A stretch of 64,000 bases of DNA from Hypomesus transpacificus. Lineage: Eukaryota > Chordata > Actinopteri > Osmeriformes > Osmeridae. The translations under genes were made by a program, and so were the position numbers. The notes beneath the pieces were generated by a model. It searched no databases, was not told the origin of the DNA, and was given only the letters and a program-made list of their open reading frames with translations. Every line of letters begins with the position of its first letter. Positions within the stretch are counted from its first letter, which is position 1. Shown in pieces: positions 56,452 through 64,000 of this stretch. Where the stretch lies: NCBI RefSeq assembly GCF_021917145.1, contig NC_061064.1, positions 4,197,203-4,261,202 on the forward strand, in the 5' to 3' direction.

Positions 56452-56880
56452 ATGTCTGGAAGAGGAAAAACTGGAGGAAAGGCCCGTGCCAAGGCGAAGA
56501 CTCGTAGTTCCCGCGCAGGACTGCAGTTCCCTGTGGGCAGAGTCCATCGTCTGCTGCGGAAGGGAAACTACGCCGAAAGGGTTGGTGCTGGTGCTCCTGT
56601 TTACCTAGCTGCTGTGCTTGAATACCTCACTGCTGAGATCCTCGAGCTGGCTGGCAACGCTGCCCGAGACAACAAGAAGACTCGTATCATCCCTCGCCAT
56701 TTGCAGCTCGCCGTTCGCAACGACGAAGAATTGAACAAATTGCTTGGCGGGGTTACCATTGCCCAGGGAGGCGTCTTGCCCAACATCCAGGCTGTTCTGC
56801 TGCCGAAGAAAACCGGACAGGCTGCACCAAGTACTGGCAAGGCGGGAAAGAAGGCCTCCTCTCAGTCTCAAGAATACTAG
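56452..56880 (+). CDS. h2ax: histone variant H2A.X
   Basis: A single exon of 142 residues with no introns. It starts [20 protein letters not shown] and carries the H2A fold ([37 protein letters not shown]). It ends KASSQSQEY, so Ser139 lies in the SQEY motif that ATM/ATR/DNA-PK phosphorylate at DNA breaks. This tail separates it from canonical H2A. Downstream there is an AATAAA (57016-57021) but no obvious histone stem-loop, so the mRNA is probably polyadenylated. It sits between c2cd2l and hmbs as in human 11q23.3. Confidence 0.98.
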
Positions 56881-57327: not shown

Positions 57328-60300
57328 TTTGTGTGATATTAGTGAACTCAAGTAGGCTTCCGATATCAGGGCCACAAACTCCATGCAGGTGAATTGCTAA
57401 AATCAGTTGATTTGAACATGTGTTCCAAAAGTGCACTCATGCCAGTAGGAAATCCGACAAAATGTTTGGTCTATTTCAATATCACTTAAAAATTACAAAA
57501 TCGTTAACCTTTTTGAATATGGAATGAAAGATTTTAATTGTATTAAAACAAACGTTCACAACAGAAAATCCTTAAATCAAATATACCGTTCGTGATAGTC
57601 ACTGATTTGTTACATTTAGGTATTCTGGCTAAATTTAGGACTCATTACGGCTGTCCCAAGTGATAAACGGACAACATTGCTCAGTAATGGTAAAAAGTAG
57701 GCACCCATTCATTTAATTTCCCACATCCCCATGAGTTACACAAATATGGTCATGCAAATTTATGCTTTGATCAAATTACCCCTAAAATATAATCTGCCCA
57801 TATATAGAGTAAACATTGGTGACTGCTTGCACAGTGTTTTGAAGTAATAATCAATTGCTTCAACGGACAACATTGAGCAGCCGAGCAGTAGTCGAAATGC
57901 CCATGGCTCCTTTGCTGAGCAGGCGAGTAGCCAGATCAACTCCCAGCTTCTCTGCTGCATCCTGGGAAGACTGTGGCATGTTGCGGGCTGTTATCCCAAC
58001 ATGCTGGGTGTCCGCTGGCTTTTTACCCTGAAATACAGAGGTGTCATGTAAAGACCCATGTATCATACCACCAAAAGAATACAGTGTTTAGGGCAGTCAG
58101 TTAGAGAAGCCTCTGACCTGTTTGCCAGTATCCACACTGGTCTGCATGTCCTCCTTCAAGCTTTCTGCGCCATCAAAGCTAAACACTGCCGCAGTCATGA
58201 AGAGCTGAAATGGGGGGAAACCATTAGGCCAAAGACACATCGTCTCCATTCCCATTTTGCTAAACGTGTCTGTCAGACTGGTAAAATGACAGTCAAGTTT
58301 CTTACCATTAAATCCTTTATTCTGTGTGAACAGCAACTGGTAGGCTGCAACTTTTCTCCTGAGGGCACAAAATAGACGGATCAAGAATGATCCCTGGCAG
58401 GCAGGACTGAGACAACCAGAATTGTTAACCTCTGTAGCATTTCTGTAAACGGCTGGATTTCACAGTCCTTTTCAACTGTTGCAGCTGCCAGCTGGTGGTC
58501 ACCTGGCTATGGCTATAGACAAGTAGAAATGTTAACTTGCCAGGTGTTTGAGGAAGGCACGCTCTGCAATGCAGCGGAGCACTGTATCTGGGTGGTGCAG
58601 GGTGGAAACCATCTCCAGGATGTCACTATCCTGCGCACGCACCTTTACTGCCAGGGCCCCCTGGGTGACATACAACAACAGAGCCTCAGAGTTCAAATGG
58701 AGCAGGAAAATATGCATTGTTAGATTGTCAAATATTTTTCGGGATTAAAATAGGTTTCAGATTTCTATCTTTTCAAATTGATATTCCACATGCACATGCA
58801 TGGCTGCGTGCTTACACACAATCATGCCACATTCAGTAACGGTTGTAACTGTTGCCAAACCAGGTGTTTCCTTTTGACGTGCCAGTAGTGGAACAACACC
58901 AATGTTTACATATGTAGATACGTATGTATGTCATAAAACAAATATTGCACATAAGTCTTCCTCAAAGACACCCCAAATTTGAATTTGGTCATTTCAACAA
59001 GATGTACCCACCTGGCCAACAGCATACATACAGTCTTCAGGTCCCAGAATCTGAAGAGAAAGATAACAGTCAAACCTTTCCTTTTTAGGGGCAGCAATAT
59101 AACTTATGATAAGCATGTAATATGCACCCTGCTGGCTAGACTGTACCTGACTGATTCGTCCTTCCCGGCCTGTCCTCTTCAGGCCTGCTACTGCTTGGAC
59201 GATGGCAGCGTACTCTTCCTTGTCATCGAGATTCTTAAGATGAATGTCGAGTTCACCTTGCTATTGTCGAAAAGTTAAGAAACAATATCAACATATGTAT
59301 ACATTTTGTGACTTACAGTTTATACACATTGAAAAACACAGTAGTTATGTGTTGGGCATACAATTTGCTTAAACTCCAGGTGGGGAAACCTCTTCTTCAG
59401 TTGGGCTGCCCGGCGCACAGAGCTTGTCCCAATCACACTGTCAAAAGAGACGACGTAATAAGAGCGGCTTGGTCTCTACTCTTCTCTGTCATACACTGAA
59501 TATATATTGCCTTGAAAAACTTTAGGGCCAAGGAGGTTGTATGCCCAAAACAGTATATTGCAAGACAGCCGTTCCTTTAATCTCCTCTTACTGGCATTCC
59601 TACCTGTCACTTGGCAAGGTGTCCAGAGTGAGTCCAGCATTCTTTGGATGAAGCACCACTGCATCAAGGGGGTTTTCACGTCTGGGGAAACACAGAACAA
59701 CATGTCAAAGAGGGTTCTGACCACAGAATGACTTAACTTCACAACGCATGGTGTTTCATTAAACAACATGACCACTACTATTAGTAATTGGACAGTCATT
59801 CATAGGGGGAATGTTAGACATTTCACCGGAATTACTGCTTCGTTTTGCAGCCTTGGCAGCAGTGTTTTAAACATTGTGGATGATGTAAGGTGTACACTCA
59901 CTGAAGCACAGCTCCAATAGTAGACCCTGGTGGCAGAGTAGTTGGAAGATCTTTCAAAGAGTGCACTACAATGTATACCCTGAAGGAGAGACAGCCCAAA
60001 CATGATTAGATTACTGTGAAAAATTACAGTGAACTAACCCTTGATTTGTACATTAGCCTCTCTGGCGTAACCATGTCATACACTTGTCAAAGTCCGCCAA
60101 GAACAATTTCAAGACCAAGACCATAATGCAATTCATTGTTTTGTCAATAGGAGTTATTTAACAGACTTGTTACAGGCCAATATGTTCAAAGAAGGGAGTG
60201 ATATCTGCTGTTTCATGTCCTGTGAAGCGCAGTGGCTCCTTGAGGATTAACATGTCAAATATAGTGATACTGTATTTAGAACATACTCATTCTTCTCCAA

Positions 60301-60626
60301 AGCATTCTCCAGTTCTTTAGTAAAAAGAACTTTCACGTCAATCTGAAACACCAAAGCACAATAATTAGATAATCTTGTAATCAGTCAAGCCTGTCTACTG
60401 AAATAAATCAAGTCAAGTCTCAAAATGCTTTTCTTAACTTCAGCTAACCTTTGGTAAAGCAGGGTCCTGGATTATGGCACCAATTGTGGATAGGGCAACT
60501 GCAGAGAAAATAACCAAGTTAGCAACGAATACTGCAAACACAGCCGTGGGCTCATCAGTTCCATTTGACTAGATTTGTCTAATATTGCCTAAAGACACTG
60601 AACTCTCTGTGAGTGCAGTTATGTTG

Positions 60627-61031
60627 TGTGACGTCACGAGAGGCTGGGTCCTGGAGGGGTGCTACATTCCCCGGAGGTGGCTGCAGCCCTGAGCAGCTGT
60701 GGCTCCCTCTGCTGGGGGAGTCGGGAGCTCCATCCCTCCCTCATAGCGGGGCGTTCCCGCGCACCTGGGACTGATCAGACGCTGATGACCAGAGGGGTTT
60801 TGTTTAAGAGGGAGAGCCACAGTTAGGTCGTGTGTGGGGTTTGGAGAGGAGGAGGATTTCTGCGCCAAGAAGAGGCGCCGTGTACGTTTTTTGAAATCCT
60901 ATGTGAGTTTGGGAGTTCTTTTGTTAATTCTGAAGATCTTTAATCAACTCCTTGTTTTTGTTTGACCCCGGTGTCTTCGCACTACTTTGAGCTGTCCCGC
61001 CAAGGGCTGTGTAGCTTCTCGTGGCGTCACA
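60627..61031. mobile_element. LTR-like element with 14-bp inverted ends
   Basis: The 405-bp block starts TGTGACGTCACGAG and ends CTCGTGGCGTCACA; these ends are inverted copies with one mismatch. TG...CA ends, a GC-rich first part and a T-rich region near 60895-60960 suit a lone LTR. The direct repeat AGTTA lies a few bases outside each end (60617-60621, 61034-61038) and may be a target duplication. No coding part is attached. It lies in an intron of the hmbs copy. A non-autonomous DNA element is the alternative. Confidence 0.5.
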
Positions 61032-61049
61032 GTAGTTAAACCCATCCAC

Positions 61050-61320
61050 TTCCGAACCAGGGGCGAATATAGGTTCCCACTTTTAGAGGGGCTAAGCCCC
61101 TAGATAAAACCTATTTTTTTTCCTGTAAACATTTTTTTAAATATGCTCTTAAATAGCGTCTTCTAGTGGGTTTTAGGAAGAGAAATGAACACATTTAGAT
61201 TTTAAAATATGAAAATAAAATGTATATAATTTATATATATTTTTTAATTATAATAATTTTTTGGGGGGGCTACTGAAACTTTTAGGGGGGCTCCAACCCC
61301 ATTTTCCTATCTGTTCCTTT
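61050..61320. repeat. AT-rich interspersed repeat, type uncertain
   Basis: It opens with GGGGCGAATATAGG, contains the palindrome GGGGCTAAGCCCC, then a long AT-rich core, and closes near GGGGGGCTCCAACCCC. This resembles non-autonomous hAT-like repeats of fish, but I could not define its ends. Confidence 0.35.
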
Positions 61321-61837
61321 TTGTTAGGGGATTGAAAGGCAGATGGAGAGAGGAGAGAAACACAGAGAGACAGAAAGCAGCCAAGAGAGGAGGATGAGAG
61401 TAAGTGTGTGATAGTGTTATTGTGTATGCATCTAAACCTTTTCTCACCTATTTCCAGATGGACATCTGGATACAGAGTCTTGAGTTTTTCAGCCACATAG
61501 TTTGTCTGGATGCGGGCCAGCTGTAATATAAACATTTCAGACCCCGATTAGTCGTTGTGAGATTGTTGCTGCCTCATATCCTATGAGTGTACGAAGACCC
61601 ACCTTTTTCAAAATGTATCTTTATCTTTCCAACAGAGAGATAAAGATACCAAAATGCCATTATTTCCCAAATCAATATTAATGGTATTGGATTACAAAGA
61701 TCCAAACTTGTATAAACAAATGGATGGTGTGCATTGTACTATCTGAATGGATGCGAATCGATCAATGAATCAACATGGAATGAATGAATGAGGTTATAAT
61801 TAAAATAGGTCAGTAAGTAAATCAAGAGAGGAAATGA

Positions 61838-61986
61838 CATGTAGTCATTTAGCAGACGCTCTTATCCAGAGCGACTTGCAGTATGTACTGGGGCATTCCC
61901 CCTGAGGCAAGTAGGGTGGCCGGGAATTGAACCAGCAACCTTCTGGTTAAAGGCCCGATACCTTTCCTGCTCAGCCATCTGACCCC
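61838..61986 (-). repeat. tRNA-related SINE fragment
   Basis: It carries TTTAGCAGACGCTCTTATCC and AGAGCGACTTGCAG, then GGCAAGTAGGGTGGCCGGG and a B-box-like GGGAATTGAACC, ending CATCTGACCCC. This is a fuller relative of the copy at 13721-13858. It lies in an intron of the hmbs copy. Confidence 0.7.
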
Positions 61987-62373
61987 AATAAAATCTGGTA
62001 TTACCTGGCTCTGTCTGGTCCCAATTCTGATGACTCGGCTCACTTCAACTCCATCCTGTTAAGAGAATAAAAGTATTTTTTTTTATAAACTTCTCCAGTT
62101 TGTACTATTTTAAGCCACTGATTAACTCCACACTAAAGCAAACACTTTCAACTCACTCGAATCACTTATATGGTCCTTCCTCCATGATACAGAAACTGAA
62201 TGATGGATCAATGTGCTGGGATATAAGCAACTACAATGATGGCTCACTGGGGTGTATGTGGAGATAACTGCAGCAAGAGGAAGCCCCTACTCTGAATCGC
62301 TCTTGTGTTCTGGGCCTCCACCTTTTTCTCCTGATAGCTTTGATAAATCAAGAATGGCAATTCATTGTGTCTG

Positions 62374-62424
62374 TCGGTGTATGTGTGTGTGTGTGTATGT
62401 GTGTGTATGTGTGTGTGTGTGTGA
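62374..62424 (+). repeat. GT/GTAT microsatellite
   Basis: A (GT)n tract with TATG interruptions, in the first intron of the hmbs copy. Confidence 0.85.
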
Positions 62425-62499
62425 CAGCAAGACAGAGAAGGGGGGTTGAGAAAGAGCAGTCTAATTGATACATGATTTTAAACAGTAGTCACTTTTAGC

Positions 62500-62652
62500 T
62501 CTTTAATTGCTCTTTTTTGTTGTTGTTGACATGTATCCAATAGCATTGCAAGGCAAGACAATATGAAAAAATATCTTAGGCTACTTGCAAATGTGTTTTT
62601 TTGGGAACTAAAGGTGATGTTGTAATTTTAAACCGGGTCTTACAGAGTTAGT
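62500..62652. repeat. diverged second copy of the TTAA-type MITE
   Basis: It shares TGTATCCAATAGCATTGCAA and CTAAAGGTGATGTTG with the element at 57109-57327. The right end is recognisable (GGTCTTACAGAGTTA) but the left end and TTAA sites are lost. It lies in the first intron of the hmbs copy. Confidence 0.6.
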
Positions 62653-63175
62653 GGGCCTCGGGAGGTGACTTACCTTGTGTGTCTGTCCCCCCTTCTTCAC
62701 CACTTTCCTGTTCACGCTGTCCATGTTGCTGTCCTTTTTTCTAGATTCAAACTATATGTTCTACAGTAGTCAGTTAGGGTTATTCAGCACATTTCTGATA
62801 CTTGCATATTCAGTTTACAAAGAATTATTGGTGTTAAATATTTCATTTGACTCATTTGAGAGAACCTCAACAGTGGTAATCCGGAAGATTTTACATTTCG
62901 TTTAGAGATTTGTTAGATGGACCCACCCAGTAATAAAATTGGACCCGCAAGCAATAAGTTCCTAAAACCCTTTAGAATACAATGGGAAGTTTAAAAACGC
63001 AGTCCCACCCACAAAAAAATAAGAAAATTAAGTCTCTGCAAAAAGTGCTGACCCTTATATTTTACATACCCTCTTGGTTGTTCACTTCAAGACGAATGGA
63101 AGTCCGGTTGCGTTCAAGTTCCTCCCAAGACTGAGAATGATTTCACTCTGACGGTTGTACGATGGCACGATCAAT

Positions 63176-64000
63176 ATATACGCTTCTAAATCCAGCCAAC
63201 ACCCCTCATCAATGTATCCAATTAATCAAGTTAATGCAAGTCCTTGCTTTGGGTGACAGGCGCCTAAGGTGACAAGAAGAGGGGGCCGCAGTTTGACTGA
63301 TGTTGCGCAAAAAGAATGTACAGTATTAAGTAAAGTACAGGCCCTGCACATCTGGTGCCCTAGGCGAAATGTATGAACAGAACAATTGAGTTATCAAAGT
63401 TGTCGAGTTCACCTTGCTATTGTCGAAAAGTTAAGAAACAATATCAACATATGTATATATTTTGTGACTTACAATTATACACATTGAAAAACACAGTAGT
63501 TATGTGTTAGAAACCCCCCGCCCCCCCCCGCCCGAGGAGCTCAAATCGTACTGCCGCCCCCCCCGCCCCCCCTGTGCCGCCCCCCCAAACGCAACACAGA
63601 GATATCACGTGGCGCGGTTGGCCCCCTCTGCTGGTACTGCGGGAGAGTTCATTAATGGATTCAACTGGGAAAATTCCGCCCCCCTCTTAATGCCACCCTA
63701 GGCGGCTGCCTAAGTCGCCTGTAGGAAGGACCGGTCCTGTGTGCCATCTACCTGCATTTAATTAAAATTAACGTGATCAACTGACAGAACCAGCTGAACC
63801 AGATGGTTCCCTGGTTTATCTCCCTCCCACCTGACACATATACGCTTCTAAATCCAGCCCACACTCCTCATCAATGTATCCAATTAATCAAGTTAATGCA
63901 AGTCCTTGCTTTGGGTGACAGGCGCCTAAGGTGACAAGAAGAGGGGGCCGCAGTTTGACTGATGTTGCGCAAAAAGAATGTACAGTATTCAGTAGGACAA
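63176..64000. repeat. direct repeat with 662-base spacing running off the right edge
   Basis: About 160 bases beginning ATATACGCTTCTAAATCCAG at 63176 recur at 63838 with few changes and continue to the window end. The spacing of 662 bases suggests a tandem duplication or a larger element repeated in the same direction. Confidence 0.8.
63338..63739. mobile_element. non-autonomous DNA-transposon-like element carrying an hmbs piece
   Basis: Left end CAGGCCCTGCACATCTGG then GCCCTAGGCGAAAT; right end GCCACCCTAGGCGGCTGCC then GGACCGGTCCTG. CAGG ends with internal CCTAGGCG words are typical of a common teleost hAT-like repeat. The ends are only loosely inverted and no 8-base target duplication is visible. 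It encloses a 108-bp copy of the hmbs locus (63401-63508) and a C-rich stretch at 63516-63590. Confidence 0.5.

Follow-up and report, generated by a model that had tools for sequence, protein, structure and literature searches.

A frameshifted hmbs copy and an open-frame relative, both without Arg167 and Arg173: remains of a possible HMBS pseudoenzyme lineage

The hmbs copy of the window

The window, by which we mean the whole 64,000-nucleotide stretch of DNA analysed (G000:C5:4197203-4261202), contains a 14-exon gene resembling hmbs, read from the minus strand (62724-57860). It is adjoined by a DPAGT1-like piece (Pfam Glycos_transf_4) and by an open reading frame for a histone H2A on the plus strand (56452-56880; Pfam Histone and Histone_H2A_C), which is h2ax-like. 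A search of the genome (437 Mb, 376 contigs) returned five hmbs loci: A on contig C15, B and the window gene, C, on contig C5, and D and E on contig C366. Homology to the D locus covers window 57448-63332 (blastn blocks, 88-92% identity). Exons 2-11 of C match HMBS in the PDB, with human chains at E about 1e-97, and Pfam places Porphobil_deam and Porphobil_deamC above their curated cut-offs in D and B, the two copies scanned. The family resemblance to HMBS, or porphobilinogen deaminase (EC 2.5.1.61; PF01379 and PF03900), extends to the same domains, exon borders, cofactor cysteine and catalytic aspartate. What sets C, D and E apart from the enzyme is the absence of Arg167 and Arg173 and a rewritten lid, to which C adds a frameshift.

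A putative first exon (MDSVNRKVVKKGGQTHK, 62674-62724) is 98% identical between C and D. An alternative first exon, exon 1b (62156-62185), begins MEEGPYK and has lost one base in C, where these seven residues are followed directly by a stop. Exon 2 (62005-62055) contains Arg26 and, in C as in D and E, lacks one codon relative to A and B; exon 3 follows at 61448-61520. The active-site lid is encoded by exon 4 (60449-60498, VALSTIGAIIQDPALPK) and ends in exon 5 (60287-60342, IDVKVLFTKEL). At human positions 58-62 C reads TIGAI, as the first-pass annotation had said; the starting motif is TIGDK, as in A and B, rather than the TTGDK it assumed, and the change is DK to AI. K62I is common to C, D and E, and D61A is found in C alone. 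Exon 6 (59902-59979) retains SLKDLP with Lys98 and Asp99, and exon 8 (59362-59437), which lies beyond exon 7 (59604-59681), retains SSVRRAAQ with Arg149 and Arg150, both as previously read. Arg26, Arg195 and these four residues are kept in C and D alike.

Exon 9 (59147-59260) reads QGELDIHL in C, D and E, where A and B have the expected RGNLNTRL; a numbering check agrees with the earlier assignment of the altered arginines to human R167 and R173, which are Gln and His here. Exon 10 (59012-59050) and exon 11 (58541-58660) are followed by the cofactor exon, exon 12 (58306-58358). The claim that this exon is one base short and runs into a stop holds: it has 53 nt in C against 54 nt in each of the other four copies. 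Exon 12 reads EKSCSLPVAVHTE and then a stop in C, the missing base lying in an A-run by comparison with B, D and E, which read EGGCSVPVAVHTEIKDLM over their 54 nt; the cofactor exon of A and B reads EGGCSVPVAVHTE. The cofactor cysteine, Cys261, is present in C, but the frame terminates within the same exon; in D this residue stands in an open frame. Exon 13 (58118-58204) and exon 14 with the stop codon (57860-58027) complete the gene. From exon 2 to exon 14, each of the 12 introns starts with GT or GC and ends with AG, and the single GC donor, after exon 11, is also present in B, D and E. The gene had been described as keeping its structure over eleven exons; its borders are indeed usable, at 12 introns, and its exons number 14. 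Three features go beyond that description: the base loss in exon 1b, the replacement of GG259-260 by KS next to the cofactor cysteine, and a tandem copy with an open frame just beyond the window.

Upstream of the gene, window 63401-63513 is a copy (97-100%) of intron 8 and the first 16 nt of exon 9 of C (59245-59353). It sits between 157-bp direct repeats of 98% identity (63176-63332 and 63838-63994), and within the D locus it matches only the exon 8-9 region of D itself.

Five hmbs loci and the order of their changes

A and B are open over 358 and 357 codons, respectively, and both have RGNLNTRL. Upstream of each, in opposite orientation, lies arcn1 (both pieces match coatomer delta in the PDB), while C is placed between B and the h2ax-like gene. 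The arcn1-hmbs arrangement is therefore old and C is a derived daughter. The stop codon of B lies 3.6 kb upstream of the first exon of C in the same orientation, which makes C and B a tandem pair. The first-pass annotation had put C at the ancestral hmbs position: the place is right, and it is occupied by this pair, in which B keeps the ancestral-type first exon. Since A and B are open with RGNLNTRL and each stands beside arcn1, haem synthesis is covered, which bears out the expectation that another copy carries it. The absence of a second hmbs from the genome, which would have spoken for a working gene in the window, is ruled out by the five copies. Zebrafish papers reportedly name two genes, hmbsa and hmbsb.

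On contig C366, D and E occupy the two arms of an inverted repeat of 13.4 kb with 99.4% identity. D is open over 364 codons; E has one-base losses in exons 13 and 14. QGELDIHL, K62I, most lid changes and repeat DNA in intron 3 are common to C, D and E, and the repeat is absent from B, from which it follows that C, D and E split from one another later than from B. This intron 3 repeat (window 60628-61314), partly present in C, D and E, has at least 50 matches in the genome, with 40 of 409 candidates scored. D and E share the arginine losses yet have the full 54-nt exon 12, which dates these losses to before the frameshift; the opposite order is ruled out by the same losses in the open copy D. 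Acquisition of exon 9 by conversion from a distant paralogue is likewise ruled out: B and D differ there by 2 synonymous and 13 nonsynonymous changes. The suggestion that selection on catalysis has gone therefore stands for the arginines, with the correction that they were lost before the frameshift of C, in a frame-keeping ancestor of C, D and E.

Two tandem arrays lie near D and E. One, of units of ~5.7 kb, lies inside the D/E inverted repeat (L028-L032, C366:1439932-1482774), and by reading of its open frames one of its loci (L029) has endonuclease-like and reverse-transcriptase-like frames; an RNA-gene array was ruled out, as no Rfam family scored above its gathering threshold in L028-L030. 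A second array, of ~135-bp period (L022 and L011, C366:1365302-1376323), ends ~100 bp before the E arm. As D and E lie in a palindrome-like repeat, a role of hmbs in fish sex determination was considered, and no paper on it was found in the open-licence literature.

The copies also differ in their first exons. Exon 1a begins MSGE or MSGD in A and B. Homology of C to B ends in intron 1, near window 62466; that of D and E extends through intron 1 at 78% identity and breaks off ~32 nt before exon 1a. None of the three daughters matches the 412 bases that directly precede exon 1a in B. The stretch of B that contains exon 1a is matched neither in window 62466-64000 nor in the DNA between C and B, and its match to D and E is confined to the intron part. 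The daughters thus lack both exon 1a and the B DNA preceding it. C and D have a different exon 1, MDSVNR(K/N)VVKKGGQTHK, with which neither A nor B starts; blastn did not find it in E, the E arm ending short of it. This exon matches C5:4284512-4284604 (L039; 77% over 93 bp), 23 kb beyond the window. It was apparently captured from a neighbouring locus, and on sequence similarity C5:4284512-4284604 (MDSVNRNVVEQGRQTHQVLQ) is its likely source.

Exon 1b is conserved from A to B; A, B, D and E each have it with an open frame and a GT donor. In B, C, D and E it is preceded by a GATA-like TTATCT (window 62156-62260 in C), and exon 1b is a candidate teleost erythroid start of hmbs. For human HMBS an erythroid isoform of residues 18-361 is described (PMC7827610), and we infer that exon 1b may be the fish equivalent of the human erythroid start.

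Residue changes and substitution rates

Haem-pathway enzymes are normally under strong purifying selection. We wondered whether the changes shared by C and D reflect plain decay, that is, a daughter lineage that was never functional, in which C, D and E drift neutrally as unprocessed pseudogenes and D has escaped disabling hits by chance. This is the main rival to the reading that we prefer, and we regard it as possible but on balance doubtful. The lack in the daughters of exon 1a and of the DNA upstream of it in B speaks in its favour.

Changes were polarised with A as the outgroup, and the branch to the C-D ancestor is referred to as internal. Nonsynonymous and synonymous changes number 41:2 on the internal branch, 1:4 in B, 20:12 in C and 18:12 in D, with 9 ambiguous. 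Within the human-alignable core 27 codons changed internally, and human, A and B agree at 23 of these sites (19.5 expected), which makes the direction of change clear. The lid (codons 56-76) has 8 of its 21 codons changed on the internal branch against 2.2 expected (P=5e-4, in a test made after these changes had been seen). Codons in 56-76 or 165-198 account for 20/36 internal changes and 4/37 terminal ones (Fisher 5e-5, the block 165-198 having been picked after the data were seen). Such enrichment of the lid for internal but not terminal changes is not what plain decay predicts. A list of 30 pocket residues is not enriched for internal changes (4 versus 3.1 expected).

Later changes differ between the two daughters. 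Only 5 of the 13 core changes private to D fall at sites identical in human, A and B (9.4 expected, P=0.009), an avoidance of conserved sites that again argues against plain decay; the core changes private to C show no avoidance (5/8, 5.8 expected). These counts refer to the core, outside which lie 5 further D codons and 11 C codons. Although the statistics are modest, the pattern agrees with continued constraint on D and none on C.

The rate of change on the internal branch has a different meaning under different models. In a free-branch codon model dN/dS is 1.17 internally, 0.60 in C and 0.75 in D, none of them different from 1, as plain decay predicts for C and D. However, A is saturated at synonymous sites (dS 1.6), its branch is at the bound in the codon-model fits and it polarises synonymous changes poorly, and for this reason the free-branch model cannot split synonymous change between B and the internal branch. 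Under a clock, the codon model gives an internal dN/dS of 9.8 (LRT 16.24, p=5.6e-5), and the clock is not rejected (lnL -2722.25 versus -2721.79 for the free-branch model with two more parameters). Joint analysis of codons and 8 introns gives 3.28 with a clock, which differs from 1 (p=4e-5), and 0.86 without one, which does not, the latter fit being slightly better (2dlnL about 3); in the profile of this analysis the point at 2.5 is poorly converged. The introns place the length of the internal branch at 0.0166 per site (0.0099-0.0228 by site bootstrap, 0.0091-0.0262 by intron-block bootstrap). By this yardstick 13.1 nonsynonymous changes are expected internally, or 21 at the upper block bound, against the 41 observed. 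The internal-branch excess over neutral change depends on the clock assumption. Neutral decay, which the first-pass annotation had implied, accordingly disagrees with the counts if rates are clock-like (41 nonsynonymous changes against ~13) and agrees with a dN/dS near 1 if they are not.

A neutral internal dN/dS comes at a cost: it needs almost no neutral change in B, with 2-3% each in C and D. It also lengthens the time over which the frame was kept. Counting stops, splice losses and frameshifts as disabling, 7.0-9.7 such mutations are expected on the internal branch without a clock and none is observed (P 0.0009-0.0001). With a clock the internal branch is short, 2.0-2.8 are expected (P 0.06-0.14), and their absence says little, which leaves room for plain decay. 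D itself has none of the 3.5-4.8 disabling mutations expected (P 0.03-0.008). Simple decay thus fits the internal branch poorly with or without a clock, for different reasons; if rates are clock-like, the changes to the arginines and the lid do not resemble simple neutral decay.

Frameshifts in C and the predicted product

A further possibility is that C is frame-intact in the animal and that its one-base losses are long-read indel errors. Both losses, in exon 12 and exon 1b, sit in runs, and the assembly does contain this kind of error: a comparison of the D and E arms over 13.3 kb gives 13 substitutions and 3 longer gaps against 52 one-base indels, of which 51 are in runs of two or more, a clear pattern of residual sequencing error. 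In the hmbs introns, however, D and E are separated by 10 one-base indels, 9 of which are changes of E alone; the remaining one falls in an A-run that also differs in C. The introns of C have 2 private one-base gaps, 1 private one-base insertion and 2 one-base differences that B does not polarise. Given that the C stretch has no E-like burst of one-base changes, its losses are probably real. C also carries D61A, D91Y, F108S and the change of GG to KS at sites common to A, B and D, and we consider an assembly artefact unlikely.

Studies of human HMBS suggest what a D-type protein might do. In one, R173W keeps 0.6% activity and halts at ES2, its cofactor still loaded, and R167W is slow (PMC7907807). 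Another assigns the lid (56-76) to substrate recruitment and elongation and finds Arg167 tolerant in a yeast complementation map (PMC10577081). Cys261, Lys98, Asp99, Arg149 and Arg150 are tied to cofactor binding and assembly in these two papers, and D retains all five without Arg173. That D, and once C, is a working isozyme still making hydroxymethylbilane, perhaps in erythroid cells from exon 1b, would agree with the residues kept in D (these five, Arg26 and Arg195), with a Pfam catalytic domain score of 237 bits against 279 bits in B and with the tolerance of Arg167 in yeast, but Arg173, central to chain elongation (PMC7907807), is His and 8 lid codons have changed, two of them to proline, which makes this reading very improbable. 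The D-type protein is most likely a folded, cofactor-bearing HMBS that would stall early. Binding or buffering of pyrrole intermediates as its use is a guess.

The reading that we prefer, and hold to be evenly poised between right and wrong, is that of a probably non-catalytic, lineage-specific hmbs lineage with fast change in the lid, of which the window copy would since have died while A and B supply the enzyme. In this account an open, conserved hmbs (B) would have been duplicated in tandem. The daughter lineage (C, D and E) would have been left without exon 1a, which A and B share in type with human HMBS, and would have kept exon 1b; C and D would have captured a first exon, whose sequence is present and whose use, like that of the other first exons, is presumed. 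The lid and the stretch from Arg167 to Arg173 would then have changed quickly with the frame open, and faster than neutral if rates were clock-like. The product would keep Arg26, Lys98, Asp99, Arg149, Arg150, Arg195 and Cys261 and lack Arg167 and Arg173; judging from the human mutants, it would probably fold, perhaps with the dipyrromethane cofactor, and would not perform normal pyrrole chain elongation. The daughter would also have been copied to contig C366 as D and E, D staying open throughout. Single-base losses in exons 12 and 1b would later have turned C into a pseudogene of the side-branch, with enzyme supply left to A and B. The evidence for this sequence of events is DNA from one genome.

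More specifically, and more tentatively, this lineage may be an HMBS-derived pseudoenzyme in which positive selection rewrote the lid and the substrate-docking arginines and which may bind or stall pyrrole intermediates, with D, perhaps also E, encoding it and C a relic. Judged by its predicted protein, D combines loss of catalytic residues with a maintained frame. Pseudoenzymes that arose by gene duplication show the same course, in which the duplicate of an enzyme has its catalytic residues replaced, keeps its frame and changes fast after duplication; here the course is predicted from the DNA sequence. A plant indole pseudoenzyme is said to be one example. Like an unprocessed pseudogene, C has introns, stands in tandem with its parent and bears two disabling one-base losses; unlike one, it underwent most of its amino-acid change before it was disabled, and an open copy has that change too. 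Human acute intermittent porphyria alleles hit the same two positions, Arg167 and Arg173, and 3EQ1, the top PDB match of the window protein, has Gln at 167. In contrast to those alleles, the changes here are in duplicates beside open copies and are accompanied, on the branch where they arose, by changes in 34 other codons (36 in total).

A duplicate enzyme turned pseudoenzyme or pseudogene is a known outcome. A search of the open-licence literature, judged by titles and abstract beginnings among the papers listed, found no hmbs pseudoenzyme, hmbs pseudogene or tandem hmbs copy in fish. A survey of animal haem genes reported positive selection on residues of teleost ALAS2, arthropod PBGS and teleost UROD only (PMC3904948). 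If the pseudoenzyme reading is true, a frame-open hmbs duplicate would be a natural experiment on the HMBS fold without chain elongation, and what Arg167, Arg173 and the lid each contribute would become testable.
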